64,000 nucleotides of DNA. Source: Nitrosomonas aestuarii. Lineage in GTDB: Bacteria; Pseudomonadota; Gammaproteobacteria; Burkholderiales; Nitrosomonadaceae. How positions within the stretch are numbered: position 1 is the stretch's first letter; the number at the start of each line of letters is the position of its first letter. Location: NCBI RefSeq assembly GCF_003046585.1, contig NZ_QAAE01000005.1, positions 62,001-126,000 of the forward strand. The letters are read 5' to 3'. The notes beneath the pieces are model-generated. The model did not search any database and was not told where the DNA came from. It saw only the letters and a list, made by a program, of their open reading frames with translations. This document shows positions 16,789 through 33,563 of the stretch, one piece after another. The translations under genes were made by a program, and so were the position numbers.

Positions 16789-17616
16789 TTGCGCCCGTCC
16801 AATACGACTCATTTCAATATTTTTCACAGTCTGCTGCAAAACCATGCACTCGCCATACAAATGGTTAAACGTGAGGTGCTGGGCCGCTACAAAGGCTCTT
16901 TTCTCGGTCTGCTCTGGTCTTTAGTCAATCCCATATTAATGCTTGCGATATATACTTTTGTATTTAGCATCGTGTTTAAGGTGCGCCTGGATCAGAACAA
17001 TACACTTTATGATGACAAGGTTACTTTTGCGCTGTTATTGTTTGCCGGGCTGATTGTTTACAATCTGTTCAACGAATGCATCTCGCGCGCACCCGGTCTC
17101 ATTCTTGTCAACACCAATTATGTAAAAAAAATTATTTTTCCACTGGAAATTTTACCCTGGGTCACCATGGGCGCTGCGCTTTTTCATGCCTGCATCAGTT
17201 ATCTGGTATTACTGACTTTTGTTTTGATAATCGGCCATCCGTTACATTGGACACTGCTATTTCTGCCGATCGTGCTGCTGCCGCTGCTGTTGCTCATCAT
17301 GGGACTATCCTGGCTGTTAGCGTCCATCGGGGTTTTTGTTCGCGATATTGGACAGTTTATCGGCCTGATATTGACGATGATGTTATTCATGAGCCCTATT
17401 TTCTATCCTGCATCCGCCCTGCCGGAATCTGTGCGCGATTATTTGTTTCTTAATCCACTTACCTTCATCATTGAGCAGACACGCGGGGTCATACTGGCCG
17501 GTAACCCGCCTGACTGGGCTGGGCTGGCTGTTTATTACCTGATTTCCACATGCATTGCATGGGCCGGGTTATTCTGGTTCGAAAAAACGCGCAAAGGGTT
17601 TGCCGATGTCCTTTGA
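16789..17616 (+). CDS. wzm: O-antigen/polysaccharide ABC transporter permease (Wzm-type)
   Basis: A 275-residue inner-membrane protein of the ABC-2 family with about six membrane helices and the signature VKREVLGRYKGSFLGLLWS near its start. Together with the next gene it forms an ABC exporter that carries lipid-linked polysaccharide across the inner membrane. The frame opens at a TTG (16789) just after an in-frame stop. The only other early start is ATG at 16861, which would remove the amphipathic N-terminal helix normally present, so TTG is preferred. Its 3' end overlaps the ATPase gene. Confidence 0.88.
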   Translation: MRPSNTTHFNIFHSLLQNHALAIQMVKREVLGRYKGSFLGLLWSLVNPILMLAIYTFVFSIVFKVRLDQNNTLYDDKVTFALLLFAGLIVYNLFNECISRAPGLILVNTNYVKKIIFPLEILPWVTMGAALFHACISYLVLLTFVLIIGHPLHWTLLFLPIVLLPLLLLIMGLSWLLASIGVFVRDIGQFIGLILTMMLFMSPIFYPASALPESVRDYLFLNPLTFIIEQTRGVILAGNPPDWAGLAVYYLISTCIAWAGLFWFEKTRKGFADVL

Positions 17617-18841
17617 GTCAATTGGCGCAAACCCCGTCATCCAGGCCAGCAAATTATCCAAATGTTATCAGCTATATAACCAACCCAAAGATCGCCTTAA
17701 GCAGTTTCTATGGCGCGGCAAGCGCAGATATTATCGTGAACTATGGGCATTACGGGATATTGATTTCACAGTCGCACAAGGTGAAGTGGTCGGTATTGTC
17801 GGCAATAACGGCTCAGGAAAATCAACCTTATTACAATTAGTAAGCGGCACGCTGACGCCGACAGGCGGCGAGCTCTCGGTTAACGGCAGAATTGCAGCCC
17901 TGCTGGAACTGGGCGCCGGATTCAACCCTGAATTTACCGGACGAGAAAATGTACTGATGAGCGCGGCTATTATGGGATTGACACAAGCCGAAATAGCTGA
18001 CCGCTTTGAAGCGATTGTTGATTTCTCTGGAATACGCGACTTTATCGACCAACCGGTCAAAACGTATTCCAGCGGCATGTATGTTCGTCTGGCATTTTCT
18101 GTCGCTATTAACGTCGACCCCGATATATTAGTCATTGATGAAGCCTTATCCGTGGGTGACGGCGCTTTTGCCCGAAAATCCTTTGACCGGATCATGCAGT
18201 TTAGAAAAGCCGGAAAAACAATTTTATTTTGCTCACACTCAATCTATCAGGTTGCTGCGCTCTGTGATCGCGCAATCTGGCTGGATCGAGGCAGAATTGC
18301 CATGATCGGCTCAAGTGGCGATGTGACCAATCAATATGGTCAAACGCTGATTGATACAGACAGTCACATGACCAGGTTTGCATCATCCCAATCCGCGCCG
18401 TCGCGACAGGCTTCCGATACTAATAATGGCGCGGCACGTATTACCGGCGTGCAGGCAGCCGTAGACGGCATGAGCGGTACAATTTTACAAGCCATCAGTC
18501 AACAAAGCACCTTAACTATTGCTGTTCAATTCGATTTCGACCCGGCATTACCCACACCGAGCCTTGTCGTTACTTTTTCCACCACTGACGGCCTTGGTAT
18601 CAGCAGCGCCTCATCCTATCATGACGCAATCGATTTAACGCAGTATCACATGCAAAACAAAAAGATTGAGGTTGTCTTCCCATCAATACCGCTGCTTAAA
18701 GGCGATTATTCATTAAGTGTATATCTAGGCTGCGAGAATGCGCTGCATTGTTATGACGCCGCTCTGAATATCATTCAATTGAAAATTGAACAGGAAGGCA
18801 CGGAACAGGGATTTGTTATGTTGCCGCATCACTGGAAATAA
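17606..18841 (+). CDS. wzt: O-antigen ABC transporter ATP-binding protein (Wzt-type) with C-terminal glycan-binding domain
   Basis: A 411-residue ATPase started at the ATG at 17606, which has AAAGGG seven bases upstream and overlaps the permease stop. An in-frame start at 17555 would overlap more and lacks support. Walker A GNNGSGKST, signature YSSGMYVRLAFS and Walker B ILVIDEALSVGD are intact. Residues about 245-411 form the extra domain typical of Wzt proteins that recognise the capped non-reducing end of the O-chain. That implies export of a chain with a terminal modification; methyl- and acyltransferase genes stand just downstream. Confidence 0.92.
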   Translation: MSFESIGANPVIQASKLSKCYQLYNQPKDRLKQFLWRGKRRYYRELWALRDIDFTVAQGEVVGIVGNNGSGKSTLLQLVSGTLTPTGGELSVNGRIAALLELGAGFNPEFTGRENVLMSAAIMGLTQAEIADRFEAIVDFSGIRDFIDQPVKTYSSGMYVRLAFSVAINVDPDILVIDEALSVGDGAFARKSFDRIMQFRKAGKTILFCSHSIYQVAALCDRAIWLDRGRIAMIGSSGDVTNQYGQTLIDTDSHMTRFASSQSAPSRQASDTNNGAARITGVQAAVDGMSGTILQAISQQSTLTIAVQFDFDPALPTPSLVVTFSTTDGLGISSASSYHDAIDLTQYHMQNKKIEVVFPSIPLLKGDYSLSVYLGCENALHCYDAALNIIQLKIEQEGTEQGFVMLPHHWK

Positions 18842-19887: not shown

Positions 19888-20789
19888 AACACTCGTATCC
19901 AATGTGGCGTTATTTTTTTTTGGATTTGCCGTTTTGGGCAATCGGCTGGCGCACCCAGGAGCGCTGGCTGCGCATGCAATCAACGTTAAAAAACGACGCA
20001 TTCGCGTTTAAAAAAAGTCTGCAGGCATTTTACGCCAACACAAACGATGTCATTGATATTGATCATGCCGTTGATAAAGCGCTGCGGATCAGGGCGATAC
20101 GAAATAGTGATGCTTACGCGTGCCTGAGCATGAATAAAAAAAATTTAGATAAAAACTTTTCAATCTCGGGTTTTGAACATTTGCACAATGCGCTCGGGCT
20201 GAACCGCCCAATAATTTTACTGACAGCGCATACGGGCAGTTTTTATACGATTGCCATTGCGCTGGGGCAACTGGGGATTCATATCGACCCTGTTGCACGT
20301 ACAGTCGACAATTCACAATATAACCCGCTACCGCAACAGTATTTTGAGCATAGCAATTATTTTCTAACCCAAACCAAAATGCAGGGACGTTATGTTTTTA
20401 CCAACAATGCAAATAAGATAGACAGGCATATTATTAGCGCCTGTAAAAATAACGGAATTCTGCTGGTCTTACCCGATATTCCACGTAAATTCATACCCAC
20501 CAGCCGTTTCCCAGTGCAACTGCTAGGCAAAAAAGCTTCATTACCTACGCGCATTATCGATTTGGGTATTAAATACAACGCACTCTTTCTGACAGTATGG
20601 AGCACGATCGAACTCAGGCCTGATTATTCCTTTAAACGCCACCTGCGCATTGACCCAGGTATTTCTACTGCCGACAAAAAAACTATTTTACAAAATTATG
20701 CCGACCGGTTATCCAGTATCGTCCGCCGGGAGCCATGGCAATGGATGGGTACTGCCATTATCAATCAATACGATGAGGAAACCGCATGA
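19863..20789 (+). CDS. LpxL/HtrB-like lysophospholipid acyltransferase family protein
   Basis: A 308-residue protein overlapping the previous gene by 25 bases. It has the layout of lipid A late acyltransferases (LPLAT/LABLAT): the catalytic block IILLTAHTGSFY at 117-128, then GILLVLPDIPR, and the end REPWQWMGTAI. Family enzymes use an HX4(D/E) dyad (HFGNWE in LpxL). Here His123 is kept but the acidic position is Tyr128. Either the dyad has moved or the enzyme is altered or inactive. In this position it may acylate a lipid carrier or sugar; that is inference. Confidence 0.7.
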   Translation: MLKIIRSIKHSYPMWRYFFLDLPFWAIGWRTQERWLRMQSTLKNDAFAFKKSLQAFYANTNDVIDIDHAVDKALRIRAIRNSDAYACLSMNKKNLDKNFSISGFEHLHNALGLNRPIILLTAHTGSFYTIAIALGQLGIHIDPVARTVDNSQYNPLPQQYFEHSNYFLTQTKMQGRYVFTNNANKIDRHIISACKNNGILLVLPDIPRKFIPTSRFPVQLLGKKASLPTRIIDLGIKYNALFLTVWSTIELRPDYSFKRHLRIDPGISTADKKTILQNYADRLSSIVRREPWQWMGTAIINQYDEETA

Positions 20790-21949
20790 ATGAATCACTG
20801 ACGATATTTACATCGATCACAGCATCCTATACCTACTCATCCGAGCTTCGACTGTCGCTGGAAATGCTGCAGCAAACATTTCCCCATGCCAGCTGGATAA
20901 TGCATACTCCTGATTCAACGCTGTCATTAAAGGAACTCGTCAGCCTGAACCTGCCGCCGGCTGGCTACATTTTATTTATTAAAGAGCCTGCAATGCTGGC
21001 CAGTAAAGAAATGTATCCTTTATTAAAAAAACATCTCGAACAAAACCCCGAAACTCAGATAGCGCTGCCGAATGATCCTGCTAACGCGCGTATTATTTTA
21101 ACGCCAAACTACCATACCTTACGCGGCTTTGAGCAATTCAGTCAGCAATTAACGCAACATGATAATGCCCCCATTGGTTATGACGGAAGGGAGTGCTGGC
21201 TGTTTCTGATCTCAGCGCAGTCTCTGTCAAATCTCGATCTGCCTGACGATCTTTTTGAACTGCCGCACCAATTGCCGGCTGAACAGATCATGATCATACC
21301 GCAGGCATATACCCATCCTTTTTATAATTATTATCGTGAAACCCGTCCCGACATCCTGCCTTTTGTGCCGGAAAAAATTCAGTCTCTGCTGGATATCGGT
21401 TGTTCCCGGGGCGGATTTGCCGCCACAGTCAAAAAAACAATCGGCTGCAGGGTTGCCGGCATTGAAATAAACCGCCATGAAGCGGAAGTTGCACAAGCCA
21501 CACTCGATGCATTATGGGTTGGCGATGTTTTATCACTGGATATTCACGATCGATTTGACTGTATCAGCTGCCTGGATGTACTGGAGCATATGCCTGAACC
21601 GGAGAAACTGTTGAGCAAGATAAAACAATGGCTCACGCCTGATGGCAATATCCTGTTAAACGTACCCAATGTCGGCTTCTGGGCTGTAGTTGACGATCTG
21701 CTTGCAGGCCGCTGGGATTATGTTCCAGCGGGCATACTATGCAATACGCATCTGCGTTTTTATACGGAGCATTCTTTGCGGCAGTTACTCGACAGCTGTG
21801 GGCTGACGGTCACTCTGATTGAAAAGCACTGCATTCCAATACCCGAGCAAATATTGACCGGTTTTAACAGTTACCAGAAATCAGGATTGGATGTCGATTA
21901 TGAGAATTTAGCAACAAATGCCTTTACTGTTTTAGCAAAATGCAAGTAA
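20786..21949 (+). CDS. SAM-dependent methyltransferase with N-terminal extension
   Basis: A 387-residue protein starting inside the end of the acyltransferase gene (ATGA overlap). Residues about 1-190 are an unassigned region with no clear motif. The C-terminal half is a class I methyltransferase with motif I LLDIGCSRGGFAA, an acidic SAM-ribose position in VAGIEINRHEA, FDCISCLDVLEHMPEPEKLL and ILLNVPNVGF. Such enzymes in glycan clusters often methylate a terminal sugar, which would match the extra domain of Wzt. The target is not known. Confidence 0.82.
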   Translation: MNESLTIFTSITASYTYSSELRLSLEMLQQTFPHASWIMHTPDSTLSLKELVSLNLPPAGYILFIKEPAMLASKEMYPLLKKHLEQNPETQIALPNDPANARIILTPNYHTLRGFEQFSQQLTQHDNAPIGYDGRECWLFLISAQSLSNLDLPDDLFELPHQLPAEQIMIIPQAYTHPFYNYYRETRPDILPFVPEKIQSLLDIGCSRGGFAATVKKTIGCRVAGIEINRHEAEVAQATLDALWVGDVLSLDIHDRFDCISCLDVLEHMPEPEKLLSKIKQWLTPDGNILLNVPNVGFWAVVDDLLAGRWDYVPAGILCNTHLRFYTEHSLRQLLDSCGLTVTLIEKHCIPIPEQILTGFNSYQKSGLDVDYENLATNAFTVLAKCK

Positions 21950-22106: not shown

Positions 22107-23060
22107 ATGAAATGGCAGTGCCGCTGGGCAACAAAACAAGATCGTGATGTATTGCTGTCTCTTTTTCTATCCGCCTTTGGTCATCCCATGAACGCCAGTT
22201 TATGGGCATGGAAATATGACTGGCAAGACGAGTTCGGCGTTCTGGCCTACACCGATAACGGTATTATTGCTTATTATGGCGGTTTGCCACGATTATTCTG
22301 GTTACAAAAAAAAAAAATTAATGCCGTTCAAATTTGTGACGTCATGGTCGCACCGCAAACACGGGGATTATTGACAAAAAATGGTGCATTTGTTCAAACC
22401 GCGAAAACTTTCCTGACTGCAAAAACAGGTAAGGACAAGACTTATCGCTTTGCTTTTGGATTTCCGTCGGACAGAGCATCACGTCTTGGTCAGAAAACAG
22501 GATTATATGCCCGCATCGACACTATACTGGAAGCCTCCTGGCGAGCCTCAACACCTCAAAAAAAACTTTTCTGGCTCAAATCCAGATCATTATCAGAAAA
22601 TGACAATACAACCATTAATCAACTTTGGCATACTGTACAAAAATCGCTGCAAAGTTTTTTAGTGCCTCAAAAGGACGCACAATTCTTCGACTGGCGCTAC
22701 CTTAAACATCCCACGCATACTTATATTGCAAAACTTGTATCCTGGAAATGGAGCAACAAAATTGTCGGCATTGTCATTTTACGCGACCATGGGCCAGAAC
22801 AAGGCGTGGAATTAATTGATTTGCTGGGACTTCCTGATAATCTGGGTCAATTATTGAGAGTGGCTCAAAGATATGCCGGCCAAATTAATCGTTCACGCAT
22901 CTTTGGCTGGTTAACGCCCAATATCCTCTCCTGTTTACCCAAACCGGTCACACAATCTGAAGTTGCCGGTGTACACATTGCCACACCCGATCTTGTAAAA
23001 ACAGCGAATCAGTTACAATCACGCTGCTGGCTCATGAGCGGCGACACTGACTTCAGATAA
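22107..23060 (+). CDS. GNAT-like acyltransferase of the surface-glycan cluster
   Basis: A 317-residue protein after a 157-base spacer. The first 150 residues resemble the GNAT fold (RWATKQDRDVLLSLFLSAFG, then ICDVMVAPQTRGLLTKNGAF as the core strand and pyrophosphate-binding region). The rest, including FFDWRYLKHPTHTY, is typical of the larger GNAT proteins found in polysaccharide clusters that N-acylate amino sugars. No catalytic residue can be confirmed by eye. Confidence 0.6.
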   Translation: MKWQCRWATKQDRDVLLSLFLSAFGHPMNASLWAWKYDWQDEFGVLAYTDNGIIAYYGGLPRLFWLQKKKINAVQICDVMVAPQTRGLLTKNGAFVQTAKTFLTAKTGKDKTYRFAFGFPSDRASRLGQKTGLYARIDTILEASWRASTPQKKLFWLKSRSLSENDNTTINQLWHTVQKSLQSFLVPQKDAQFFDWRYLKHPTHTYIAKLVSWKWSNKIVGIVILRDHGPEQGVELIDLLGLPDNLGQLLRVAQRYAGQINRSRIFGWLTPNILSCLPKPVTQSEVAGVHIATPDLVKTANQLQSRCWLMSGDTDFR

Positions 23061-23098: not shown

Positions 23099-24196
23099 AT
23101 GATTTCGATTATTCTGGTTAATTACAAAACGAATGATCAGCTACTTGATGCGGTTGCATCGGTACTGACCCAAATAACAGCTGATCCACTTGAAGTTATC
23201 GTAGTCGACAACAGCCCGGCTGACACCGCACATACTTCACTGGCTGCGCAATTACCGCATAACGTCACGTATATCCAGAATAATAAAAATATCGGTTTTG
23301 CCAAAGCCTGCAACCAGGCTTTTGATTATTCCAATGGTGAATTCATACTACTGCTTAATCCCGATGCGCGTTTGCTGCCGTCAGCCTTATCGAAGCTCAC
23401 AGAAAGTTTAAAACAACACCCGGATGCAGGCGCGGTTGGGCCACGCGTATACTGGGACGACGACTGTCGATTTTTAATGCCGCCCAGTACCTATCCATCC
23501 ATTGCAAGTTTTTATAAAGAAGCTATTTCGCGGTTGCATCCGCTAATGTCTCAATACTCGTCAATTGATTTTCGCAAAAAAGTGCTGCAAGCATGGACCT
23601 GTAATACACTCGTGCCCGTAGAGGCTTTATCAGGCGGGCATATACTGATACGCCGCGAAGCAATTCTAAAATGCGGCGGCCTGTTTGACCCACGTTTTTT
23701 TATGTACTGGGAAGACACCGATCTCATGCATCGTTTAAAGAAAGCCGGCTATCGTTTATATCTGGAACCTGAAGCGAAGTGCCTGCATTACTACACGCAT
23801 GCGCATACCAAAGATCATCTCATTGCACAAGGCTGGTCGATCTTTCAACTGAAACATTTCCGACACAATAAGCGCTTTCAGTTTGTGAACTGGATAAATA
23901 AACGATTACCGCCTGCTGCAACGCCCGACATAATGCCGATCACAGTAAAACATGAGAAACTGATATTCCCCGTCCCCTCTGAATTACAACATGCCTGGCT
24001 ACTGGAATTAGGCACATCACCGCAGTTGATACCGGCAATCGGTCATTTTGGCAGCGGTCCCACAGCTGAAGTTGACACTGCTTTATTCCAGCGCTTACAA
24101 GACAAAATTTATTTCGCACGCTTATCCGAACCTGTATCCAGGCCAGATTTGATATACTACTGGCAATGGCAGGGCTATCCATCAAAGACTTATTAA
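23099..24196 (+). CDS. Glycosyltransferase family 2, rhamnosyltransferase-like
   Basis: A 365-residue GT-A enzyme. MISIILVNYKTNDQL opens the nucleotide-binding fold, NIGFAKACNQAF and LLLNPDARLLP contain the metal-site region, and SGGHILIRREAI and FFMYWEDTDLMHRLKKAGY give the acceptor loop and catalytic acid (ED). This pattern is common in WbbL-like rhamnosyltransferases. About 90 C-terminal residues after the catalytic part are unassigned. Confidence 0.85.
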   Translation: MISIILVNYKTNDQLLDAVASVLTQITADPLEVIVVDNSPADTAHTSLAAQLPHNVTYIQNNKNIGFAKACNQAFDYSNGEFILLLNPDARLLPSALSKLTESLKQHPDAGAVGPRVYWDDDCRFLMPPSTYPSIASFYKEAISRLHPLMSQYSSIDFRKKVLQAWTCNTLVPVEALSGGHILIRREAILKCGGLFDPRFFMYWEDTDLMHRLKKAGYRLYLEPEAKCLHYYTHAHTKDHLIAQGWSIFQLKHFRHNKRFQFVNWINKRLPPAATPDIMPITVKHEKLIFPVPSELQHAWLLELGTSPQLIPAIGHFGSGPTAEVDTALFQRLQDKIYFARLSEPVSRPDLIYYWQWQGYPSKTY

Positions 24197-24223: not shown

Positions 24224-27200
24224 TTGGAAAACTTACTTATTCCCTTCCAGGCCGTTAGAAAAATCACCGCCAAGCGCGTGCTGGTATTAGCCCCACATCC
24301 TGATGACGAAGTATTCGGCTGTGGCGGCGCGATTATGCGGCATGTTGAGCGCCATGTGCCGGTTCAAGTCATTATCGTCACCAACGGCGCATATGGCGTC
24401 AGTCAAGAGGCGATACCCGACTATATACGTCAGCGCCAGCAGGAAAGCCTCGCCGCCGCCGTCATACTCGGCTACGGCACCCCGGATTTCTGGCAATATC
24501 ATGACCGAGACCTATTCTACGGCGAAAAACTGATAACGGAAATTTTAACGGCTATCCATGAGACCGGAGCCGATCTGGTTTACGCCCCTTCCGTCTATGA
24601 AATTCACCCTGATCACCGCGCTCTGGGTATGGCAACAGTTGAAGCTGTTCGCCGGACAGATAAAGACAGCCCGGTTCAACTCGCATTATACGAAGTCGGA
24701 CTGCCCATGCGCCCCAATCTATTCCTGGACATCAGTGATCTGGCTGCGCGAAAAATGAAAGCGATGGGTTGTTTTACCTCCCAAAATGCTAACCAGCGCT
24801 ACGACCTCGATATAGCCGCACTGAACCGCTATCGAACCTACACCCTGCCTGCGGAAGTTACTGCGGCAGAAGCTTATATTCTGACAAACAAAACAGAATT
24901 GTCAGGCGATCCATTCAGGCTTTACCAATCCGAGCATGCGCGCCAACAAAAAAAAGGACTGGCACTGGATACAAAAGACATTCCTTTGGTCAGCGTCATC
25001 ATCCGCAGCACAGATCGCCCCACATTGACTGATGCGCTTGACTCCATAGCACTCCAGACATACGCCAATATAGAAGTTATCGTTGTCAACGCCAAAGGCC
25101 CTGAACACAGCGAACTGGAGCCGTGGTGCGGACGTTTTCCGCTGCGCATGGTAACGCCTGCGCAGTCGCTGCAACGAAGCAGTGCAGCAAATACGGGTTT
25201 ACAGGCTGCCGCTGGTGCTTATTTGATTTTCCTTGACGATGATGATCTTTTTTTACCGGAACATATCGCCCATCTTGTCAGCGCCCTGCAGCAACACACA
25301 GGTTTTCGTTGCGCCTATGCGGGTGTGCGCGTCGATTATTATGTGAACGAAAAGCTTGAAACATCAGGCGCATTCAATGAACCGTTTGACCAGCGCAGAC
25401 TTTGGGGAAGAAATTTCATCCCGATACACGCTATCCTGTTTGAGCGTACCCTCTTGGCCGAGGGCTGCTGTTTTGATGAACAGCTTGACTTGTTTGAAGA
25501 CTGGGATTTCTGGGTTCAAATTTCACAGCATACTTCAATGTTGCACGTTGACAAAATCGGCGCGGTTTATAGAAATTTCGGCCATTCTGGATTGGGGCTC
25601 AAGCAAGACAAAAATACCATGAGAGCGTTGAGAGGTAAATTCTATAACAAATGGAAAACGCTGCTGAGCGGTGAACAGTTGGATGATTTGATAGAATACA
25701 GGGAAGAAATGATCACCGGCCTGCAGCATAATTTAGCAGCCATGCGTGGCCAATTGGCCAGCAGTGAAAACCAGATCGAGACACTGTTGAATCAACAGAA
25801 CCGCTTGATGCAAGAATCACTTGCAGCAAGCGCAAGAGAAGCTTCTTTACAAAAAACGATTAACGATTTAACCCAGTCGACATCCTGGAAAATAACTGCG
25901 CCGCTACGGTTCTTTTCAAGGATTTTACGTGGTCAAAATCACGCGGCAATGGACGGCCTGCGCCGCCGTTTTATGCCCATTCTGCGCACAGTTTACTGGT
26001 GGCTGCCTGCCGCATGGCGCGACAAGATATTAACCATGGCATACCGGATTGCTGGTCCTTTTTTTTCCGGCATGAATCATTACGAACTCTGGCGTTCCAA
26101 CTCAAGACGTGCTTTTTATCGCCTGCCCACAACCGCTACGGGTTTTCTGGCAAACATGATTGATCTATCAGGATTTTCTCCATCCACCAATGAAATACCC
26201 GGAAGCATAGCCATTCACGCACATATTTTTTATCCCGACCTGGCTGCCGAGTTTGCGAAATTTCTACGTAATATGCCGTTTGCATATGATCTGTTTGTCT
26301 CCACACCGGATGAAGCTGCCAACGTAATATGCAAGCAGCACTTTACCAAGTTACCACGATTGAAACGACTGACAGTCACTACTGTACCAAACCGGGGACG
26401 CGACATAGCACCGATGTTCTGTGCATTCGGTGATACTCTGAAAAATTATGATTACATCGCGCATATCCACAGTAAAAAATCACTCTACAATAATGGCGCC
26501 ACTGACGGCTGGCGAGAATATTTATTAACCAATCTATTTGGCAGCGACCAGCAGATACGCAGAATTTTTACACTGCTTACTGATGAAAATAAAGCCGGTC
26601 TCGTTTATCCACAGAACTTTGCCAGGTTGCCCTACTCCGCGTATACCTGGCTATCCAATCAAGCACTTGGCCGCACCTGGTGCAATAAACTCGGCATTCA
26701 TCCATTTCCCGCCGGATACTTTGATTTCCCCGCCGGCTCGATGTTCTGGGCCCGGACAAAAGCACTGCATCCATTGTTTGAAGCACAGATCACAATTGAA
26801 GACTTCCCTGAAGAAGCGGGCCAAACAGATGCGACTCTGGCCCATTGTCTGGAACGATTATTGGTGCTGGTAACCAAAAAATCAGGATTTAACGCCGCGA
26901 TTCTCAGGGATATACCGTCAAACAGCTGGTCCCGTTGGCGCTTTGAACAATATCTTGTGCGCAAACCGGAAAATATTCAAGCCAGATTGTCGGATTCTTC
27001 CGTGCAGGTTGTTGTTTTTGATATTTTCGATACACTGCTGACACGACCACTGCTCTATCCGGAGCGGATCAAATCGATTATTGCGCAACGCGCCGGGGAT
27101 GAAGTAGGAAAAATTTATCTGGATTTACGGGCAACAGCAGAGTCTCAGGCACGACAAAAAGCCGGAAGAGACATTAGTCTTGATGCGATTTTTAAAGAGT

Positions 27201-28804
27201 TGGCCGCTTTATCCGGTCTTTCACCGGAAAACATCGAAAAACTGCGCCACCTGGAAGAGATCACCGAAATGAGAGCCGTCGCACCAAGGACGGAAGTGAT
27301 TGCTCTACTGTACACGGCTATCGCCTTGGGCAAACATGTGGTGCTGGCCAGCGATATGTACCTGCCGAAGTCAACTATCGAAGCCATGCTTAAAGAAAAC
27401 GGCATAACCGGGTGGCATCGGTTATATGTATCTTCCGATCTTGGCCTGCGTAAAGATACAGGGGACCTGTACCGTCATTTACTGTCTGAGGAACAGGTTA
27501 CACCCAATACTGTCATGGTTATTGGAGATAATGAGCACTCCGATATCCAAATACCCGGCAACATGGATATGAAATTATGCCATATTCTGCGCCCGGTCGA
27601 ATTGGCACGCACTATGCCGCGTCTGGGACCATTAATTGAAAAATCGGTTTATCATGAAGACTTGAATGTGCAACTCACACTTGGAACCCTTGTGCAGGAA
27701 ACCTTTCAACCCGTATCGTTTCCAGGTTTTGATCCTTCCGATCTTGTTCCTGCCACACCCTGGTCGATTGGATTTGCCGTTGCCGGCCCCTTGATTCTTG
27801 CTTTTGTTCAATGGCTGACAGCGAAAGCAGCTGCAGATGGCATTCAGCATTTACTTTTTTTGTCCCGAGAAGGCCAAATCCTAAAAACAGTGTACGATCG
27901 CTGGACATCCAATGATACGCAGGCCGTTGCCTCCGATTATCTTGTTATTTCCCGCCGCACAGTAACGGTTCCAATGATTTCAAACCTTGATGATATTTTT
28001 GAAATTGCCCGTATACAGTTTTCACCCAATACACTGACCACTTTTATAGAAGAACGCTTTGGATTTACATTATCTTCTGCAGAATGTGACCATTTTGCGC
28101 ATAACAAACTATGGCCAAAAAATAAACGGGTCTCTGTTGAGGATCAAAATATAGATCATTTGATACCCCTCCTTCGCACACTGGAGGAAAAAATACTCGC
28201 TCAGGCCGAAGATGAGCGCACTGGATTATTTGCATATCTGGATGGAATGAAATTCAACTCAACCGAGTCTACCGCCGTAGTTGATATCGGATATGCCGCG
28301 ACGATTCAGGGTCGACTGAACCGCTTATTACATAAACCCGTGCATGGTTATTATCTGGTCACTGAAGAGCGTGCACAAAAGATTTGCGTTGAGCATAACG
28401 TCATTGCACAGGGCTGTTTTGGCCACTATGTCAATGCTTTCAACAATCCACCACTGGTTTTCAAAGAAAGTTTTTCTATGGAAAAGCTACTCAGTTCTAA
28501 CGATCCACAAATTGTTCGTTACCACCTTAGCAGCACAGGCGATATTGTGCCCGAGTTTCGCAAGCTAACCGAGACGGAACGCCAGACGATGACAACTCGT
28601 GCTGAAATACAACGCGGCATCATGGATTTTGTGGACCGCAGTATTGCCATCCGGGCGGAACTAGTCAGTGACTTTATCGTTCCTTCAGAACTTGCAAAAG
28701 ATTTGTTTGAAACATTTGTCGAGCAGCCTTCCAGATCAGAATTGGATATTCTGAGAAAATTGACTCTGGATGACTATTATTGTGGCCGCGGCCTGGTAAG
28801 TTAG
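24224..28804 (+). CDS. Giant fusion: PIG-L deacetylase, GT2, coiled coil, RgpF-like, HAD-like
   Basis: One uninterrupted 1526-codon frame starting at TTG (24224). Residues about 17-230 are a PIG-L/LmbE zinc deacetylase (APHPDDEVFGCGG, EIHPDH). About 253-450 is a GT2 domain (PLVSVIIRSTDRPTL, IFLDDDDLFLPEHI). About 500-552 is a coiled-coil linker. About 655-910 is an RgpF-like rhamnan-synthesis domain (HAHIFYPDLAAEF, VPNRGRDIAPMFCAF, HIHSKKS). About 925-1100 is a HAD-type phosphatase region (FDIFDTLLTR, VLASDMYLPK, VIGDNEHSD). The last 400 residues are a conserved tail with FLSREGQILK. It probably deacetylates a sugar and extends a rhamnose-containing chain on the cytoplasmic side; the product is unknown. 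Confidence 0.85.
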   Translation: MENLLIPFQAVRKITAKRVLVLAPHPDDEVFGCGGAIMRHVERHVPVQVIIVTNGAYGVSQEAIPDYIRQRQQESLAAAVILGYGTPDFWQYHDRDLFYGEKLITEILTAIHETGADLVYAPSVYEIHPDHRALGMATVEAVRRTDKDSPVQLALYEVGLPMRPNLFLDISDLAARKMKAMGCFTSQNANQRYDLDIAALNRYRTYTLPAEVTAAEAYILTNKTELSGDPFRLYQSEHARQQKKGLALDTKDIPLVSVIIRSTDRPTLTDALDSIALQTYANIEVIVVNAKGPEHSELEPWCGRFPLRMVTPAQSLQRSSAANTGLQAAAGAYLIFLDDDDLFLPEHIAHLVSALQQHTGFRCAYAGVRVDYYVNEKLETSGAFNEPFDQRRLWGRNFIPIHAILFERTLLAEGCCFDEQLDLFEDWDFWVQISQHTSMLHVDKIGAVYRNFGHSGLGLKQDKNTMRALRGKFYNKWKTLLSGEQLDDLIEYREEMITGLQHNLAAMRGQLASSENQIETLLNQQNRLMQESLAASAREASLQKTINDLTQSTSWKITAPLRFFSRILRGQNHAAMDGLRRRFMPILRTVYWWLPAAWRDKILTMAYRIAGPFFSGMNHYELWRSNSRRAFYRLPTTATGFLANMIDLSGFSPSTNEIPGSIAIHAHIFYPDLAAEFAKFLRNMPFAYDLFVSTPDEAANVICKQHFTKLPRLKRLTVTTVPNRGRDIAPMFCAFGDTLKNYDYIAHIHSKKSLYNNGATDGWREYLLTNLFGSDQQIRRIFTLLTDENKAGLVYPQNFARLPYSAYTWLSNQALGRTWCNKLGIHPFPAGYFDFPAGSMFWARTKALHPLFEAQITIEDFPEEAGQTDATLAHCLERLLVLVTKKSGFNAAILRDIPSNSWSRWRFEQYLVRKPENIQARLSDSSVQVVVFDIFDTLLTRPLLYPERIKSIIAQRAGDEVGKIYLDLRATAESQARQKAGRDISLDAIFKELAALSGLSPENIEKLRHLEEITEMRAVAPRTEVIALLYTAIALGKHVVLASDMYLPKSTIEAMLKENGITGWHRLYVSSDLGLRKDTGDLYRHLLSEEQVTPNTVMVIGDNEHSDIQIPGNMDMKLCHILRPVELARTMPRLGPLIEKSVYHEDLNVQLTLGTLVQETFQPVSFPGFDPSDLVPATPWSIGFAVAGPLILAFVQWLTAKAAADGIQHLLFLSREGQILKTVYDRWTSNDTQAVASDYLVISRRTVTVPMISNLDDIFEIARIQFSPNTLTTFIEERFGFTLSSAECDHFAHNKLWPKNKRVSVEDQNIDHLIPLLRTLEEKILAQAEDERTGLFAYLDGMKFNSTESTAVVDIGYAATIQGRLNRLLHKPVHGYYLVTEERAQKICVEHNVIAQGCFGHYVNAFNNPPLVFKESFSMEKLLSSNDPQIVRYHLSSTGDIVPEFRKLTETERQTMTTRAEIQRGIMDFVDRSIAIRAELVSDFIVPSELAKDLFETFVEQPSRSELDILRKLTLDDYYCGRGLVS

Positions 28805-28845: not shown

Positions 28846-29817
28846 ATGGAAAATCCTTTTATTTCTATTATCATAGTTAATTATAATTCCGGTGACATGC
28901 TGTCCAGAGTAATGTCTGCACTAGCCGTGCAAACTTACTCGAATTATGAAGTTGTTGTAATAGATAATCACAGCGTGGACAATTCCTGGCAAGCGGCCGA
29001 ACACACCAGCTTTCCGTGCCAACTTGTTCGTTTGGAAGAAAATATCGGTTTTGCAGCAGCAAATAATCTTGCCATAGCGGATTATATTCAAGGAGACTGG
29101 ATTTTTTTACTGAATCCCGATGCTTACCCCGAGCCGGATTGCCTGATGGCTGTCACAAGAAATATCACCCAGATGCCTGAAATAGACTGTTTTGCGTGTA
29201 CATTGATTAATGCAAATCTACCGATGCAGCTGGATGGTATAGGCGACACTTATCATGTATCCGGACTGCACTGGCGTCATGGTCACGGCTCACATCACGC
29301 AATCGTTCCTGCTCAGCCTGTAGAAGTATTTTCTGCATGCGCAGCAGCGGCTTTTTATCGCGCATCAACATTTCGCCAGCTAGAAGGCTTTGATGAATCT
29401 TATTTTGCCTACTCAGAAGATATCGATCTGGGTTTCCGATTGCGCCTTGCCGGTGGTACCTGCATATTGCTGCCCGATGCCAGAGTACACCATGTCGGCT
29501 CGGCAATCACAGGTCGTTCAAGTGACTTCTCGATCTATCACGGACACCGCAATCTTACCTGGACGTTCATCAAAAACATGCCGATGCCTTTGCTGTTTTT
29601 TCTGTTGCCGATTCATTTAGCCATGACAATTTATGTGGGATTGATGTTTGCCCTGAGTGGCCGCTTCAGACCTTACGCGCGCGCCAAAAAGGATGCAATC
29701 CGGCAATTAGGCCCGGAACTGGCCAAACGAAGAAAAATCCAGCCCCAACGTACCTGCTCTTGTTTCAATTTGCTCCGCATGATGTGCTGGCTTCCCCGCA
29801 ATCGTTTTCAAAAATGA
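28846..29817 (+). CDS. Glycosyltransferase family 2 with C-terminal membrane segment
   Basis: A 323-residue GT2 enzyme. FISIIIVNYNSGDML, NIGFAAANNLAI, FLLNPDAYPEPDCL and YFAYSEDIDLGFRLRLAGG follow the WbbL-like pattern, with ED as likely catalytic acid. A hydrophobic stretch near residues 243-270 (PLLFFLLPIHLAMTIYVGL) suggests membrane association. It lies 41 bases after the fusion gene and overlaps the next glycosyltransferase by an ATGA. Confidence 0.86.
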   Translation: MENPFISIIIVNYNSGDMLSRVMSALAVQTYSNYEVVVIDNHSVDNSWQAAEHTSFPCQLVRLEENIGFAAANNLAIADYIQGDWIFLLNPDAYPEPDCLMAVTRNITQMPEIDCFACTLINANLPMQLDGIGDTYHVSGLHWRHGHGSHHAIVPAQPVEVFSACAAAAFYRASTFRQLEGFDESYFAYSEDIDLGFRLRLAGGTCILLPDARVHHVGSAITGRSSDFSIYHGHRNLTWTFIKNMPMPLLFFLLPIHLAMTIYVGLMFALSGRFRPYARAKKDAIRQLGPELAKRRKIQPQRTCSCFNLLRMMCWLPRNRFQK

Positions 29818-30755
29818 CTGCCAAACAATTTGGCCCGAATAGTCACGTTAACACTGAAAGACTGCCCGTATCAGTTGTAATTGTCAACCACAATGCGGGC
29901 GCGATATTGGCAGACTGCGTTGCGCGTGTATATGATACAGTTAAAGAAGTTATTATTGCTGACAATGCATCAACAGATTCCAGTCTTTCGGGATTAACCA
30001 CCCGGTTTCCTGTAGAATCCCGTATGAAACTGATAGCAACCGGTTCGAATCTGGGATTTGCCGCAGGTTGCAATATCGGCCTTGCCGCATCAACAGCACC
30101 CTATATTCTGTTTCTCAATCCGGATTGTCTACCCGAAAAGCAATCACTGCGCCGCATGGTTCAGGTACTTGAGCGGGATCCGCAGATTGGCATGACGGGC
30201 GGATATTTAATCAATCCGGACGGTACCGAACAAGGCGGCGGACGACGCGCCATTCCGACGCCGTGGCGCGCATTTGTCCGCGCTTCCGGACTTTATCGTT
30301 TAAATAAATACTGGCCACAATTTTTTTTCGACTTTCATCTGCATCGACAGCCATTACCACGGACACCTGTTGAGGTAGAAGCCATTTCCGGCGCGCTGAT
30401 GCTAATTCGACGCACCGCAATTGACAATGTCGGAAGCTGGGATGAGGGTTATTTTCTGCACTGTGAAGATCTTGATCTGTGCATGCGATTCCGACAACAG
30501 GGCTGGAAAATTTTTTTTGTCCCGGACGCGCCGGTTATTCATCATCAAGGAACCTGCAGCCGTGCACGACCCTTTTTTGTAGCCTGGCACAAGCATAAAG
30601 GCATGCTGCGCTTCTATCGAAAATTTTTTCGAAACAACTACCCGGTTTTGTTATCAGGCGTGATTGCATGCGGCATATGGTTACGACTAAGCCTCACTTT
30701 ATTATTTTACTCGACGCGACATCTCTATAAATTGTTAAAATTCAAGAATGGATAA
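29814..30755 (+). CDS. Glycosyltransferase family 2, rhamnosyltransferase-like
   Basis: A 313-residue GT2 enzyme. I start it at the ATG at 29814, which gives an ATGA overlap with the preceding stop. The frame is open from 29760, but that start would overlap the neighbour by 58 bases. Motifs are VSVVIVNHNAGAIL, NLGFAAGCNIGL, LFLNPDCLPE, SGALMLIRRTAI and YFLHCEDLDLCMRFRQQGW. A C-terminal hydrophobic helix (VLLSGVIACGIWLRLSLTLL) anchors it. It resembles the preceding glycosyltransferase and may be an old duplicate of it. Confidence 0.86.
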   Translation: MTAKQFGPNSHVNTERLPVSVVIVNHNAGAILADCVARVYDTVKEVIIADNASTDSSLSGLTTRFPVESRMKLIATGSNLGFAAGCNIGLAASTAPYILFLNPDCLPEKQSLRRMVQVLERDPQIGMTGGYLINPDGTEQGGGRRAIPTPWRAFVRASGLYRLNKYWPQFFFDFHLHRQPLPRTPVEVEAISGALMLIRRTAIDNVGSWDEGYFLHCEDLDLCMRFRQQGWKIFFVPDAPVIHHQGTCSRARPFFVAWHKHKGMLRFYRKFFRNNYPVLLSGVIACGIWLRLSLTLLFYSTRHLYKLLKFKNG

Positions 30756-31707: not shown

Positions 31708-33501
31708 ATGAAACCAATATTTAAAGCCCCAAAGAATGAAATCACGGAAGTTTTAGTCAGTTTCAAAAAGGCTTTCAACACCATCGGTGTTTTCAGCGCT
31801 GTAATTAATGCTTTGATGCTCATGCCTGCCATTTACATGTTGCAACTTTATGACAGCGTTTTAACGAGCCGCAATGAAATGACGCTGCTGATGCTGACAT
31901 TAATCGTCATAGGTGCCTATATTTTTCTGGGTGCACTAGAATATATCCGCAGTTTTGTCTTGATCCGTGTCGGCGCAAAGCTCGACATGAAATTAAACAA
32001 ACGCGTTTATACCGCTGCTTTTGAGCAAAGCCTGAAGCAGAATGAAGGTAATGCCGGTCAGGCATTGAAAGACCTGACCAGTATCCGCCAATTCATGACC
32101 GGCAATGCTTTATTCGCATTCTTCGACGCACCCTGGTTTCCAATCTATATATTTGTTATTTTCATGTTCCATCCCTGGCTGGGGATATTCGCTTTATGCG
32201 GCACCACGGTTCTCATTATTTTGGCGTATATCAATGAGAAAGTATCCCGCAAACCACTGGATGAAGCCAATTCCATGGCAGTGGTTTCAACCAATATGGC
32301 ATCCAATAATTTGCGCAATGCTGAGGTTATTGAAGCCATGGGAATGCTGCCCAATCTGCAAGCACGCTGGGACAAACCCCATAGCCGTTTCCTCAATTTA
32401 CAAGCGGAAGCCAGTGAAAAATCCAGCGTGGTTACAGCCATATCCAAATCAAGCACCGTGGCACTGCAATCATTGATGCTGGGCTTGGGCGCATTACTGG
32501 TATTGGAAAACCTGATTTCTCCGGGCATGATGATTGCCGCATCGATTTTAATGGGCAGGGCCATTGCGCCGGTTCAGTTATTAATCAGCGTATGGAAACA
32601 ATTTGGCAGCACCCGCAGCGCATACGAACGACTCACGAAATTGCTGGAACAAAATCCCGCCCGCAAACCTGGGATGGCGCTACCGAAGCCTACTGGCATT
32701 ATCACAGTTGAAAATGTTACAGCCGCACCGCCCGGTTCGCGCGTGCCTGTAATCAAAGGGCTGAACTTCTCTGTTTCAGCCGGTGAAGTATTAGGCATTA
32801 TCGGCCCTAGCGGTTCCGGGAAATCCACATTAGCGCGCCTTCTGGTTGGTGTATGGCCTGCTGCATCCGGGAAGGTACGTCTGGACGGCGCCGATGTTTA
32901 TCTGTGGAACAAGGATGAACTGGGACCTCATATCGGCTATCTACCTCAGGATATCGAACTGTTCAGCGGTTCCGTTTCTGAAAACATTGCGCGCTTTGGT
33001 GAAATTGAATCCGAGAAAGTCATTCTTGCCGCCCAACGCGCAGGTGTTCACCAGATGATTCTGAATATGCCAGCGGGTTATGACACTAAACTGGGTGATG
33101 GTGGCGCAGGACTTTCAGGCGGTCAAAAACAACGCCTTGGCCTTGCGCGCGCCATGTATGATGATCCAGCTTTAATTGTTCTGGATGAACCCAATTCCAA
33201 TCTTGATGAAATTGGCGAACAGGCGTTGTTGACTGCGTTGATTGACTTGCGCAAACGCGGTAAAACAATTGTCCTGATTACCCACCGTAGCAGTATTATC
33301 AGCGTCACCAATAAATTATTGCTACTGCATGAGGGTATGGCAAAACTGTTCGGTCCAACCGAGAAAGTGCTGACTGAATTGCAAAAACAACAGCAAAAGC
33401 AGCAACAGGGACAATCTGTTAAACAAACGCAGGAAGCACCCGTTCCCCAAGCACAACAAAAGCCAATACAGACTGTCAATGTCTTTGACCCAGAAACTTG
33501 A
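31708..33501 (+). CDS. Type I secretion ABC transporter (PrtD/LapB-type, no peptidase domain)
   Basis: A 597-residue fused permease/ATPase. About six membrane helices (residues 20-300) precede an ATPase with Walker A GPSGSGKST, signature LSGGQKQRLGLAR and Walker B LIVLDEPNSNLD. There is no N-terminal C39 peptidase, so it belongs to the PrtD/RsaD group that exports RTX and S-layer proteins with C-terminal signals. The last 45 residues are unusually rich in Gln and Pro. A TATAAT at 31693-31698 lies 10 bases before the ATG, too close for a typical leader. It forms an operon with the two next genes. Confidence 0.93.
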   Translation: MKPIFKAPKNEITEVLVSFKKAFNTIGVFSAVINALMLMPAIYMLQLYDSVLTSRNEMTLLMLTLIVIGAYIFLGALEYIRSFVLIRVGAKLDMKLNKRVYTAAFEQSLKQNEGNAGQALKDLTSIRQFMTGNALFAFFDAPWFPIYIFVIFMFHPWLGIFALCGTTVLIILAYINEKVSRKPLDEANSMAVVSTNMASNNLRNAEVIEAMGMLPNLQARWDKPHSRFLNLQAEASEKSSVVTAISKSSTVALQSLMLGLGALLVLENLISPGMMIAASILMGRAIAPVQLLISVWKQFGSTRSAYERLTKLLEQNPARKPGMALPKPTGIITVENVTAAPPGSRVPVIKGLNFSVSAGEVLGIIGPSGSGKSTLARLLVGVWPAASGKVRLDGADVYLWNKDELGPHIGYLPQDIELFSGSVSENIARFGEIESEKVILAAQRAGVHQMILNMPAGYDTKLGDGGAGLSGGQKQRLGLARAMYDDPALIVLDEPNSNLDEIGEQALLTALIDLRKRGKTIVLITHRSSIISVTNKLLLLHEGMAKLFGPTEKVLTELQKQQQKQQQGQSVKQTQEAPVPQAQQKPIQTVNVFDPET

Positions 33502-33563
33502 GCTACTATACAACACACTTCAAATTCGCATCAAAATGACACAAGCACTCAACAGGAACAATT

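Follow-up and report, generated by a model that had tools for sequence, protein, structure and literature searches.

The gene at positions 24224 to 28804 (+) of the window, by which we mean the whole 64,000-nucleotide stretch of the Nitrosomonas aestuarii genome analyzed here, encodes what is on balance probably a single-chain synthase that unites a polymerase, a coiled-coil ruler, and a PIG-L–GT2 terminator for a polysaccharide exported by Wzm/Wzt (probably an O-antigen). Homology, key residues, and predicted fold support the assignment of a HAD-gPRT module and of a GT-A fold for the adjoining RgpF domain, and the coiled coil, the exporter context, the swapping of modules in both directions, and the retention of one intact PIG-L are likewise supported; donors, linkages, chain termination, and end recognition are parts of the model that we infer.

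The open frame comprises 1526 codons plus stop and begins with TTG, a start supported by an end-to-end alignment of 13 proteins (including that of the window) in which N3 is invariant and E2 nearly so. Complete fusions were found in 13 of 37 sampled genomes of the genus Nitrosomonas and in one genome of another family. The 1526-residue multi-domain fusion described by a first-pass annotation of this DNA is borne out by its exact frame coordinates, four Pfam domains, and the end-to-end alignment of the 13 proteins, and its image of an assembly line is apt for several enzymes genuinely fused into one chain and encoded among surface-glycan genes. From N- to C-terminus, the protein is organized as follows:

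24257..24928 (+), PIG-L (GlcNAc de-N-acetylase-type) domain, residues 12–235 (Pfam PF02585, PDB relatives, residues)
24977..25693 (+), GT2 glycosyltransferase domain, residues 252–490 (Pfam PF00535)
25670..25876 (+), coiled coil and candidate molecular ruler, residues 483–551 (heptad score, lengths in relatives)
25877..25909 (+), STSWKITAPLR motif at the end of the coil, residues 552–562 (invariant residues)
26189..26923 (+), RgpF C-terminal-half domain, a predicted GT-A glycosyltransferase, residues 656–900 (PF05045, AlphaFold2, VIA-align)
26975..27628 (+), HAD phosphatase of the PRP/CrpP type, residues 918–1135 (D933 in FDIFDTL, K1077, D1102, D1107)
27629..28801 (+), gPRT/CriT-type PRPP-dependent ribofuranosyltransferase domain, residues 1136–1526 (phmmer, AlphaFold2, VIA-align)

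The predicted polymerase half

The C-terminal half (RgpF-HAD-gPRT) would be the polymerase, probably building a chain of rhamnose plus ribofuranose. Its RgpF-type GT-A domain would add a hexose, probably L-rhamnose from dTDP-rhamnose, and the gPRT domain would move 5-phosphoribofuranose from PRPP onto the chain, where the HAD phosphatase would strip the 5-phosphate and thereby allow the next sugar to be attached. The linkage made by characterized bipartite ribofuranosyltransferases is beta.

The HAD part and the 400-residue tail, previously singled out as least understood, turn out to match known two-domain PRPP-dependent ribofuranosyltransferases. Pfam recognizes the phosphatase at residues 928–1109 (2.6e-6) and gives no match for the tail, which corresponds to the transferase half of these enzymes: in phmmer searches, residues 918–1513 match 7shg_A over both domains, and Bcs3 is matched as well. 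The nucleophilic D933 is invariant in the 13 fusions and in 20 rows of a further alignment, and so are, in the 13 fusions, the acidic residues of the PRPP site, E1216 (in SREG) and D1354 (in VVDIGY). At the positions of D386, D680, and E818 of Bcs3, the phmmer alignment has D, E, and D in the window protein, with D680 and E818 falling on E1216 and D1354 if a presumed one-residue numbering offset is allowed for; the phosphatase nucleophile and the acidic PRPP-site residues of Bcs3 were mutated in published work. An AlphaFold2 model of the gPRT domain reaches pLDDT 92, and VIA-align places the predicted fold closest to 7shg_A (Z 27.5; 538 aligned, rmsd 12.9) and 8a0c_A (Z 24.4; 549 aligned, 5.9 A), with the next unrelated row at Z 16.0. 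Matches, key residues, and fold thus lead us to reject an unknown identity for the HAD part and tail. Ribofuranose is the sugar most firmly predicted for the glycan, and it had been missed by the first-pass annotation, whose proposal of a rhamnose-containing product remains plausible in view of the RgpF domain and the rml genes of one distant genome (G466).

Pfam searches succeed for both the RgpF and the HAD part, the test by which the earlier domain calls were to be judged, and for RgpF the result holds for part of the family profile. The match to PF05045 (residues 660–888; 1.5e-49; 169.5 bits against a gathering score of 25) covers only profile positions 270–502 of 503, so that the protein shares the C-terminal profile half with RgpF and lacks the N-terminal one. 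The NRGRD and HSKKS motifs of this part are invariant in the 13 fusions. No solved relative was found by sequence up to E 5; the AlphaFold2 model (pLDDT 88) aligns to GT-A enzymes with Z up to 12.8 (177 aligned, 3.2 A), a comparison that gives the general GT-A fold only, with many tied rows. The domain is probably a rhamnosyltransferase. The family owes its name to rhamnan synthesis, and rmlBDAC-type genes lie directly upstream of the RgpF-HAD-gPRT module in G466, both of which speak against a rather unlikely alternative in which RgpF moves a sugar other than rhamnose and the polymer consists of ribofuranose and another hexose. What keeps this alternative, which is otherwise compatible with our main model, in play is that mannosyl-, glucosyl-, fucosyl-, and rhamnosyltransferases match the fold at nearly tied Z, that half of the profile only is matched, and that RmlC is common among relatives whether or not they carry the gene. 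RmlC is uninformative as a marker of this module: it is present in 55 of 61 relatives, and dTDP-rhamnose supply therefore does not discriminate.

The PIG-L–GT2 cassette, its coil, and module swapping

The PIG-L domain (PF02585 at residues 20–142, 2e-24) carries APHPDDE at 23–29, of the AHPDDE type, and HPDH at 128–131 (HxDH), and thereby H25, D27, D28, H128, and H131, which we take to have the metal-binding or catalytic role known from the PIG-L family. Its PDB relatives over residues 15–190 are diacetylchitobiose deacetylases (3we7, 3wl4, 8bgn; best 1e-18) that are free enzymes, not known to be fused to a glycosyltransferase, unlike the window protein. Active-site residues of the fused PIG-L (AHPDDE-type and HxDH motifs) are changed in G007, G029, and G032, and all 3 genomes have an intact separate PIG-L, as do all 3 genomes whose fusion is without PIG-L (6 of 6 together). 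The following GT2 domain (PF00535 at residues 258–372, 2.8e-15) has D338–D341 and E425–D426 invariant in the 13 fusions.

The coiled coil between GT2 and RgpF was absent from the first-pass domain list. Its heptad score stands out against 2000 shuffles (z 4.1), and the tile at residue 484 tops all 69-residue tiles of the protein (z 4.0; next 2.1). Coil lengths of all 17 RgpF-HAD-gPRT family members fall in two classes modulo 7 (another coil-length set, also of 17 proteins, includes 2 duplicates, from partial loci of G000 and G006, which leave its count of distinct lengths unaffected, and lacks 2 proteins missed by the motif pattern). Counting against the model, the distances outside this family belong to classes 0, 2, and 5 modulo 7, and only 2 of 9 share a class with the family. 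Arrays of 21/42-nt repeats lie at the coil in 14 of 18 genes, but a search of the window's own coil found no DNA tandem repeat. In the STSWKITAPLR motif, S552, S554, W555, T558, and R562 are invariant in 12 aligned cassette proteins, and proteins of other architectures have similar motifs where their coils end.

In the model that we favor, this coil, ending in SxSW[KR]xTxPLR (possibly the start of a membrane-associated helix), would separate the polymerase from PIG-L and GT2 and serve as a molecular ruler, with the N-terminal cassette as chain terminator by analogy to WbdD, WbbB, and ORF6 of O7. In WbbB of Klebsiella O12, the terminator is a Kdo transferase. Once the chain has grown to a length at which it reaches the cassette, GT2 would add one N-acetylamino sugar and PIG-L would de-N-acetylate it. 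The deacetylated glycan proposed earlier is not supported in that form, as a single terminal residue is a likelier target of deacetylation than the entire glycan.

Relatives exchange either half of the protein, with other polymerases behind PIG-L–GT2 and a sulfotransferase before the same polymerase. The PIG-L–GT2–coil cassette ends after the coil motif in four genomes (G002, G008, G016, and G024) and elsewhere runs into a further GT2 (G020, and by custom profile G005 and G031), GT2-GT4 (G011), or GT4 (G009). A sulfotransferase and the SxSW motif precede RgpF-HAD-gPRT in G382 and G466, and in each an APS kinase gene lies just downstream; no Wzm/Wzt relative was recognized in their retrieved flanks. 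The search for the same fusion thus returned the complete form as counted above along with splits: 3 genomes of the genus encode PIG-L separately, HAD-gPRT is a gene of its own in G020, and gPRT is separate from RgpF-HAD in the distant genomes G345 and G561. A search of genome contigs gave 8 loci. Two of them (L016, L017) coincide with the contigs of G004 and G019, one (L018, in a MAG labelled Desulfobacteraceae) holds a PIG-L–GT2 fragment truncated where the contig stops, and in the remaining 5 the match is confined to GT2.

This pattern bears on a different reading, which we regard as improbable, in which PIG-L and GT2 are repeat-unit machinery that places a deacetylated N-acetylamino sugar in every repeat of a polycationic or re-acylated polymer, the coil being a spacer or dimerizer. 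The presence of all modules in one polypeptide would suit it, as would nearby GNAT and methyltransferase genes that could modify each residue. Yet the cassette stays together where the modules that follow it differ or are missing, a sulfotransferase replaces it before the same polymerase in G382 and G466, and terminators occupy its position in characterized coil proteins, all of which argues against this reading.

The Wzm/Wzt locus and the chain end

Upstream and downstream of the fusion gene, the window contains:

16789..17616 (+), Wzm, membrane subunit of an ABC-2 type exporter (Pfam PF01061, 1.7e-25)
17555..18841 (+), Wzt, exporter ATPase with C-terminal Wzt_C domain (Pfam PF00005, 2.2e-22; PF14524, 3.5e-12)
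20786..21949 (+), methyltransferase, possible further chain-end modifier (Pfam PF13489, 1e-23)
22107..23060 (+), GNAT-type acetyltransferase, possible further chain-end modifier (Pfam PF13527, 3e-6)
23099..24196 (+), GT2 glycosyltransferase directly upstream of the fusion gene (Pfam)
28846–29817 and 29760–30755 (+), two further GT2 genes (Pfam)

Under the terminator model, the terminal sugar might then be acylated or methylated by the neighboring GNAT and methyltransferase, and the C-terminal domain of Wzt would recognize the marked end for export of the chain. Among the 29 genomes of the genus that have the cassette, 27 show a full-length Wzt match including the C domain and one more has a match truncated by the end of its contig, whereas none of the 8 genus genomes lacking the cassette shows one; against the model, G052, which belongs to a different family of the order, matches Wzt over its full length (43%, 28–427) but has no PIG-L. 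GNAT relatives lie near Wzt and the cassette in the genus as well as in G196 and G549, and other relatives have a methyltransferase-GNAT fusion at the methyltransferase position (Pfam on two).

A point against the model is that the PIG-L–GT2 cassette is conserved although the Wzt C domains diverge in the window and in its nearest relative, G006: they are only 29–38% identical (measured for the window) to their counterparts in the remaining cassette genomes. The window and G006 differ from these genomes in their methyltransferase/GNAT/GT4/acyltransferase gene set as well, and such genes may therefore set the recognized end. That the C-domain divergence tracks this set and not the cassette is the argument for a still less probable reading, in which the neighboring methyltransferase/GNAT genes make the chain end and PIG-L–GT2 makes a reducing-end adaptor or side residue, but PIG-L–GT2 sits N-terminal of the coil like the terminators of characterized enzymes, and one terminal residue may be the substrate of both gene sets. 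The Wzt C domain does not track polymerase type (mean identity 0.563 for 120 pairs sharing RgpF-HAD-gPRT vs 0.566 for 128 differing pairs, among the 24 of 27 full-length Wzt whose genomes had an assigned polymerase type, which leaves out G010, G015, and G025).

Relation to known systems

Chain length and export of many O-antigens depend on capping enzymes on coiled-coil rulers, and few cap chemistries are characterized. The family of the window protein supplies a candidate de-N-acetylase cap and would join ribofuranosyltransferase, terminator, and ruler in one chain, and the natural variation of its coil lengths could serve to test ruler models in a genus of environmental ammonia oxidizers. 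Literature searches (titles and abstract starts) returned no earlier mention of such a fusion, of PIG-L terminators, or of ruler tandem repeats, the absence of PIG-L terminators being a point against the model. We think it possible, if short of probable, that this is a new kind of terminator: a coil-mounted glycosyltransferase and de-N-acetylase creating a free or re-acylated amino-sugar end read by Wzt, within one self-contained protein that unites polymerase, ruler, and terminator. Its ruler would evolve as 21-nt heptad units are duplicated, and lineages would exchange its two halves, with a sulfotransferase and a methyltransferase as further candidate caps.

For the ribofuranosyltransferase, the closest likeness is Thermobacillus composti 7shg, a PRPP-dependent enzyme with a HAD phosphatase followed by a gPRT domain. 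PMC11231755 describes Klebsiella O4 ORF5 and O7 ORF7 as enzymes of this PRP-gPRT kind, encoded in O-antigen loci with Wzm/Wzt; they are separate polypeptides, whereas in the window protein a coil and an RgpF-type glycosyltransferase precede the module in the same chain, and the likeness is one of description. The Haemophilus influenzae type b capsule polymerase Bcs3 also joins a CrpP phosphatase and a CriT ribofuranosyltransferase in a multi-enzyme chain, but its partners are a TagF-like ribitol-phosphate transferase and an SH3b domain, and no chain-terminating residue is described for it (PMC11231755). Campylobacter jejuni Cj1432 shares the glycosyltransferase-phosphatase-ribosyltransferase order in one chain; its N-terminal partner is a glucuronosyltransferase, and neither coil nor PIG-L domain is mentioned in the description consulted.

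Of the features of the coil-terminator class, the window has the coil, the domain order, and a locus with Wzm and a Wzt_C-bearing Wzt, and PIG-L–GT2 is a candidate for the end-modifying enzyme. By analogy, the layout resembles the terminator-ruler-polymerase arrangement already known from Klebsiella O-antigens: WbbB (Klebsiella O12), ORF6 (Klebsiella O7), and WbdD (E. coli O9a) combine an end-modifier, a coil, and a polymerase (or a recruited one) in ABC-transporter loci, according to PMC11231755. The O9a and O7 terminators described there are methyltransferase-kinases (PMC11231755), whereas the window protein would differ in its PIG-L–GT2 cap and its built-in ribofuranosyltransferase.

The fusion frame and its distribution

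The first-pass annotation had read one frame as a fusion of deacetylase, glycosyltransferase, RgpF and HAD domains; its coordinates are exact, and Pfam finds PIG-L, GT2, RgpF and HAD in that order.

24224-28804 (+): fusion protein of 1526 residues with a TTG start

Below, the PIG-L-GT2-coiled coil part, which ends at an SxSW motif, is called the cassette. Of the 37 genomes sampled from the genus, 13 carry the whole fusion uninterrupted by stops (G000, G006, G007, G013, G018, G019, G022, G023, G027, G029, G030, G032 and G034), and this conservation excludes a chance open frame. PIG-L is a gene of its own just upstream of the rest in three genomes (G026, G028 and G033), and contig ends cut the fusion in two others, leaving part of it visible (G004 and G025). 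Eleven genomes have PIG-L-GT2 with another or no polymerase, or a fragment (G002, G005, G008, G009, G010, G011, G015, G016, G020, G024 and G031), and eight have neither the fusion nor this part (G001, G003, G012, G014, G017, G021, G035 and G036), G003 having a separate HAD-gPRT only. The 24 sampled genomes from other families of the order gave GT2-domain matches at most at the threshold used, and outside the family the whole fusion was found in one genome of 274 drawn from the class (G196; 1635 residues). One piece from further away reflects either transfer or misbinning:

L018:9992-11419 (+): PIG-L-GT2 piece, 51% identical, at the contig end of a MAG labelled Desulfobacteraceae

The HAD-gPRT half

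The HAD part and its tail had been considered the least understood portion, a view that no longer holds, as they match known ribofuranosyltransferases in sequence, residues and predicted fold. Residues 918-1513 match the polysaccharide ribofuranosyltransferase of Thermobacillus composti (7shg; 1.6e-22) and residues 916-1411 match Bcs3 of H. influenzae type b (7.5e-19). Alignment with both marks D933 as the HAD nucleophile, while E1216 and D1354 occupy the gPRT positions of Bcs3 D680 and E818 (assuming a one-residue offset in numbering), with the same residues in 7shg. All three are invariant across 13 fusions, and exchange of D680 or E818 leaves Bcs3 partly or fully inactive, according to PMC10299916. 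An AlphaFold2 model (20 sequences, pLDDT 92) aligns with 7shg_A over 538 residues (Z 27.5), where the rmsd of 12.9 may be read as a domain shift, and with 8a0c_A over 549 (Z 24.4, 5.9 A); the first unrelated row follows at Z 16.0. In such enzymes, as excerpts of another study describe, the gPRT moves Ribf-5-P from PRPP and the HAD phosphatase strips the phosphate to give beta-ribofuranose (PMC11127046). The HAD-gPRT half is thus well supported as, almost certainly, a PRPP ribofuranosyltransferase.

A separate 664-residue HAD-gPRT protein, 36% identical, is present in G032, G007 and G029, the three genomes in which the fused PIG-L also lost active-site residues (see below):

L040:12246-14237, L041:11820-13811 and L039:296-2287: separate HAD-gPRT protein

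The second HAD motif is changed in the fusions of these genomes (rows L005 and L008 of A3, an alignment of relatives; also L006), and the free-standing genes have possibly taken over fused functions there. A protein from a distant genome is another way to build a ribofuranosyltransferase into a large synthase:

L099:5843-11818 (-): 1992-residue protein with HAD-gPRT mid-chain, then GT2 and GT4 domains

Exchange of modules and the RgpF donor

Modularity runs two ways, either half of the fusion being combined with other modules. Behind the cassette, some proteins have RgpF-HAD-gPRT and others have further GT2 domains (G020, where a separate HAD-gPRT gene adjoins, and, by a profile of ours, G005 and G031), GT2-GT4 (G011), GT4 (G009) or nothing (G002, G008, G016 and G024). 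In G382 and G466, RgpF-HAD-gPRT itself is preceded by a sulfotransferase domain, the SxSW motif lying between; G307 has methyltransferase-coil-SxSW-RgpF-WbsX adjoining Wzm/Wzt, and G237 a 292-residue PIG-L with SxSW and without GT2. Across 398 genomes of the phylum, the RgpF-HAD-gPRT profile matches near end to end in five (G000, G006, G382, G466 and G660) and over RgpF-HAD only in five more (G345, G561, G604, G663 and G697), with an adjacent separate gPRT gene in both of the latter examined (G345 and G561). The cassette profile matches over most of its length in five (G000, G006, G073, G549 and G577).

L137:8697-12668 and L136:10871-14908: sulfotransferase-SxSW-RgpF-HAD-gPRT proteins adjoining an APS kinase gene, a candidate system for a sulfated chain end

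The PF05045 (RgpF) match of the window protein spans profile positions 270-502 only. PF05045 matches of any extent occur in 25 of 249 phylum genomes, with the C-terminal half in 18, both halves in one protein in one genome (G073) and the N-terminal part only in the rest. The domain model (33 sequences, pLDDT 88) has a GT-A fold (top row Z 12.8, 177 aligned, 3.2 A), which leaves the donor unfixed because many rows are tied, the dTDP-rhamnose enzyme RmlT (Z 11.8) among them. Gene neighborhoods help with this question: in G466, RmlB- (a name we apply to a PF16363 match), RmlD-, RmlA- and RmlC-type genes lie directly upstream of the sulfotransferase-RgpF-HAD-gPRT gene and the APS kinase gene directly downstream, and G382 has an RmlA-type gene and APS kinase at the same places (some of the frames between scanned).

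Candidate ruler and terminator, and the exporter

Heptad periodicity marks the coiled coil at residues 483-551 (z 4.1); of the protein's 69-residue tiles, the one at 484 ranks first with 4.0, ahead of the runner-up with 2.1. Between the end of GT2 and the following conserved block, the spacer measures 70, 74, 77, 81, 84, 88, 91, 95 or 109 residues, which is 0 or 4 modulo 7 in 17 of 17 distinct RgpF-HAD-gPRT family proteins of the genus. Measured to the SxSW motif, seven distinct lengths fall into two classes modulo 7, with a chance of about 0.003 that is indicative only, the sequences being related. Two of the nine cassette proteins from outside this family share a class with it, the nine falling into classes 0, 2 and 5 and the family into 1 and 5. 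At the DNA level, the coil of 14 of 18 genes, a set that includes the gene of G196, holds arrays with a period of 21 or 42 nt (69-93% matches); the exceptions are G000, G004, G013 and G034. The cassette gene of G278 and 4 of the 9 remaining cassette genes of the genus have such arrays as well, and G237, G307, G382 and G466 show none. The simplest reading is that coil length changes by whole heptads. The G073 cassette protein has a different period:

L096:10000-14079 (+): cassette protein with a 33-nt array (11 residues, hendecad) before the SxSW motif

The closest solved relatives of the PIG-L domain are diacetylchitobiose deacetylases, which act on the non-reducing residue. In the fused PIG-L of G007, G029 and G032, H25 is changed to E, Q and Q, respectively, and H128 to Q, with D27 also lost in G007, which probably inactivates the domain. 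These genomes have a second, separate PIG-L, as do G026, G028 and G033, whose fusion is without the domain. H25, D27, D28, H128 and H131 are kept in all six separate copies and in eight other cassette proteins checked. Scanning 61 genomes with PF02585 gave one PIG-L over the cut-off in each of the ten other complete-fusion genomes (G019 has an additional match below the cut-off) and, in G024 with its shorter cassette, a second match of 30 bits; the scan gave none in the eight cassette-free genomes of the genus or in G004 and G031, where contig ends cut the cassette. Given this distribution, every system seen complete retains one deacetylase that appears functional, and the changed fused domain with its intact separate copy would be a natural complementation.

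The cluster begins with the ABC exporter genes Wzm and Wzt. Of the 29 cassette genomes in the genus, 27 have a Wzt match that extends to the C-domain end (E 1e-40); in G004 the match covers the C-terminal part and is cut by a contig end, and G031 has none at this threshold. In the eight cassette-free genomes no match is full-length, all of them stopping no later than residue 348 (Fisher 2e-7 if G004 is scored as positive, the genomes not being independent). Against the model counts G052 of another family, with a full-length match (43%) and without any PIG-L, evidence that we consider too small to shift our confidence in the model. C-domain identity is 0.563 for same-polymerase versus 0.566 for different-polymerase pairs, and 0.13-0.19 to three Wzt proteins of cassette-free genomes. 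G196 and G549 likewise have relatives of Wzm/Wzt and GNAT close to the cassette.

The window's Wzt C domain shares 78% identity with its G006 counterpart and 29-38% with those of other cassette genomes, which speaks against a simple reading. Methyltransferase, GNAT, GT4 and acyltransferase are each encoded separately in the window and G006, where a methyltransferase-GNAT fusion stands in other loci; we therefore think that these genes also shape the end group. Further genes in the window are:

10137-12596 (-): fusion of TPR, OGT-like (GT41) and methyltransferase
13386-16304 (-): 972-residue frame without Pfam match; within the genus, several genomes have relatives of its first ~150-180 residues upstream of wzm
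19863-20789 (+): lipid A acyltransferase-like gene within the glycan cluster, with a relative in G006 only among the loci compared
31708-36263 (+): ABC transporter, HlyD and TolC-like genes that immediately follow the glycan cluster; in relatives whose stretch extends that far, copies (66-86% identical) stand behind the cluster too

We infer that the coil acts as a ruler and PIG-L-GT2 as a chain terminator, and we moderately favor the whole model of polymerase, ruler and terminator in one protein. Our searches of open-licence literature found no earlier mention of this combination, of the candidate deacetylase cap or of a heptad-stepped ruler series. By analogy, the protein would fit the terminator-ruler-polymerase plan described for Klebsiella O antigens (PMC11231755), the pair of domains at its terminator position being new. 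Terminator-ruler-polymerase proteins are a known kind in ABC-exported glycans, and PRPP ribofuranosyltransferases are likewise known within multi-enzyme chains such as Bcs3 and Cj1432.
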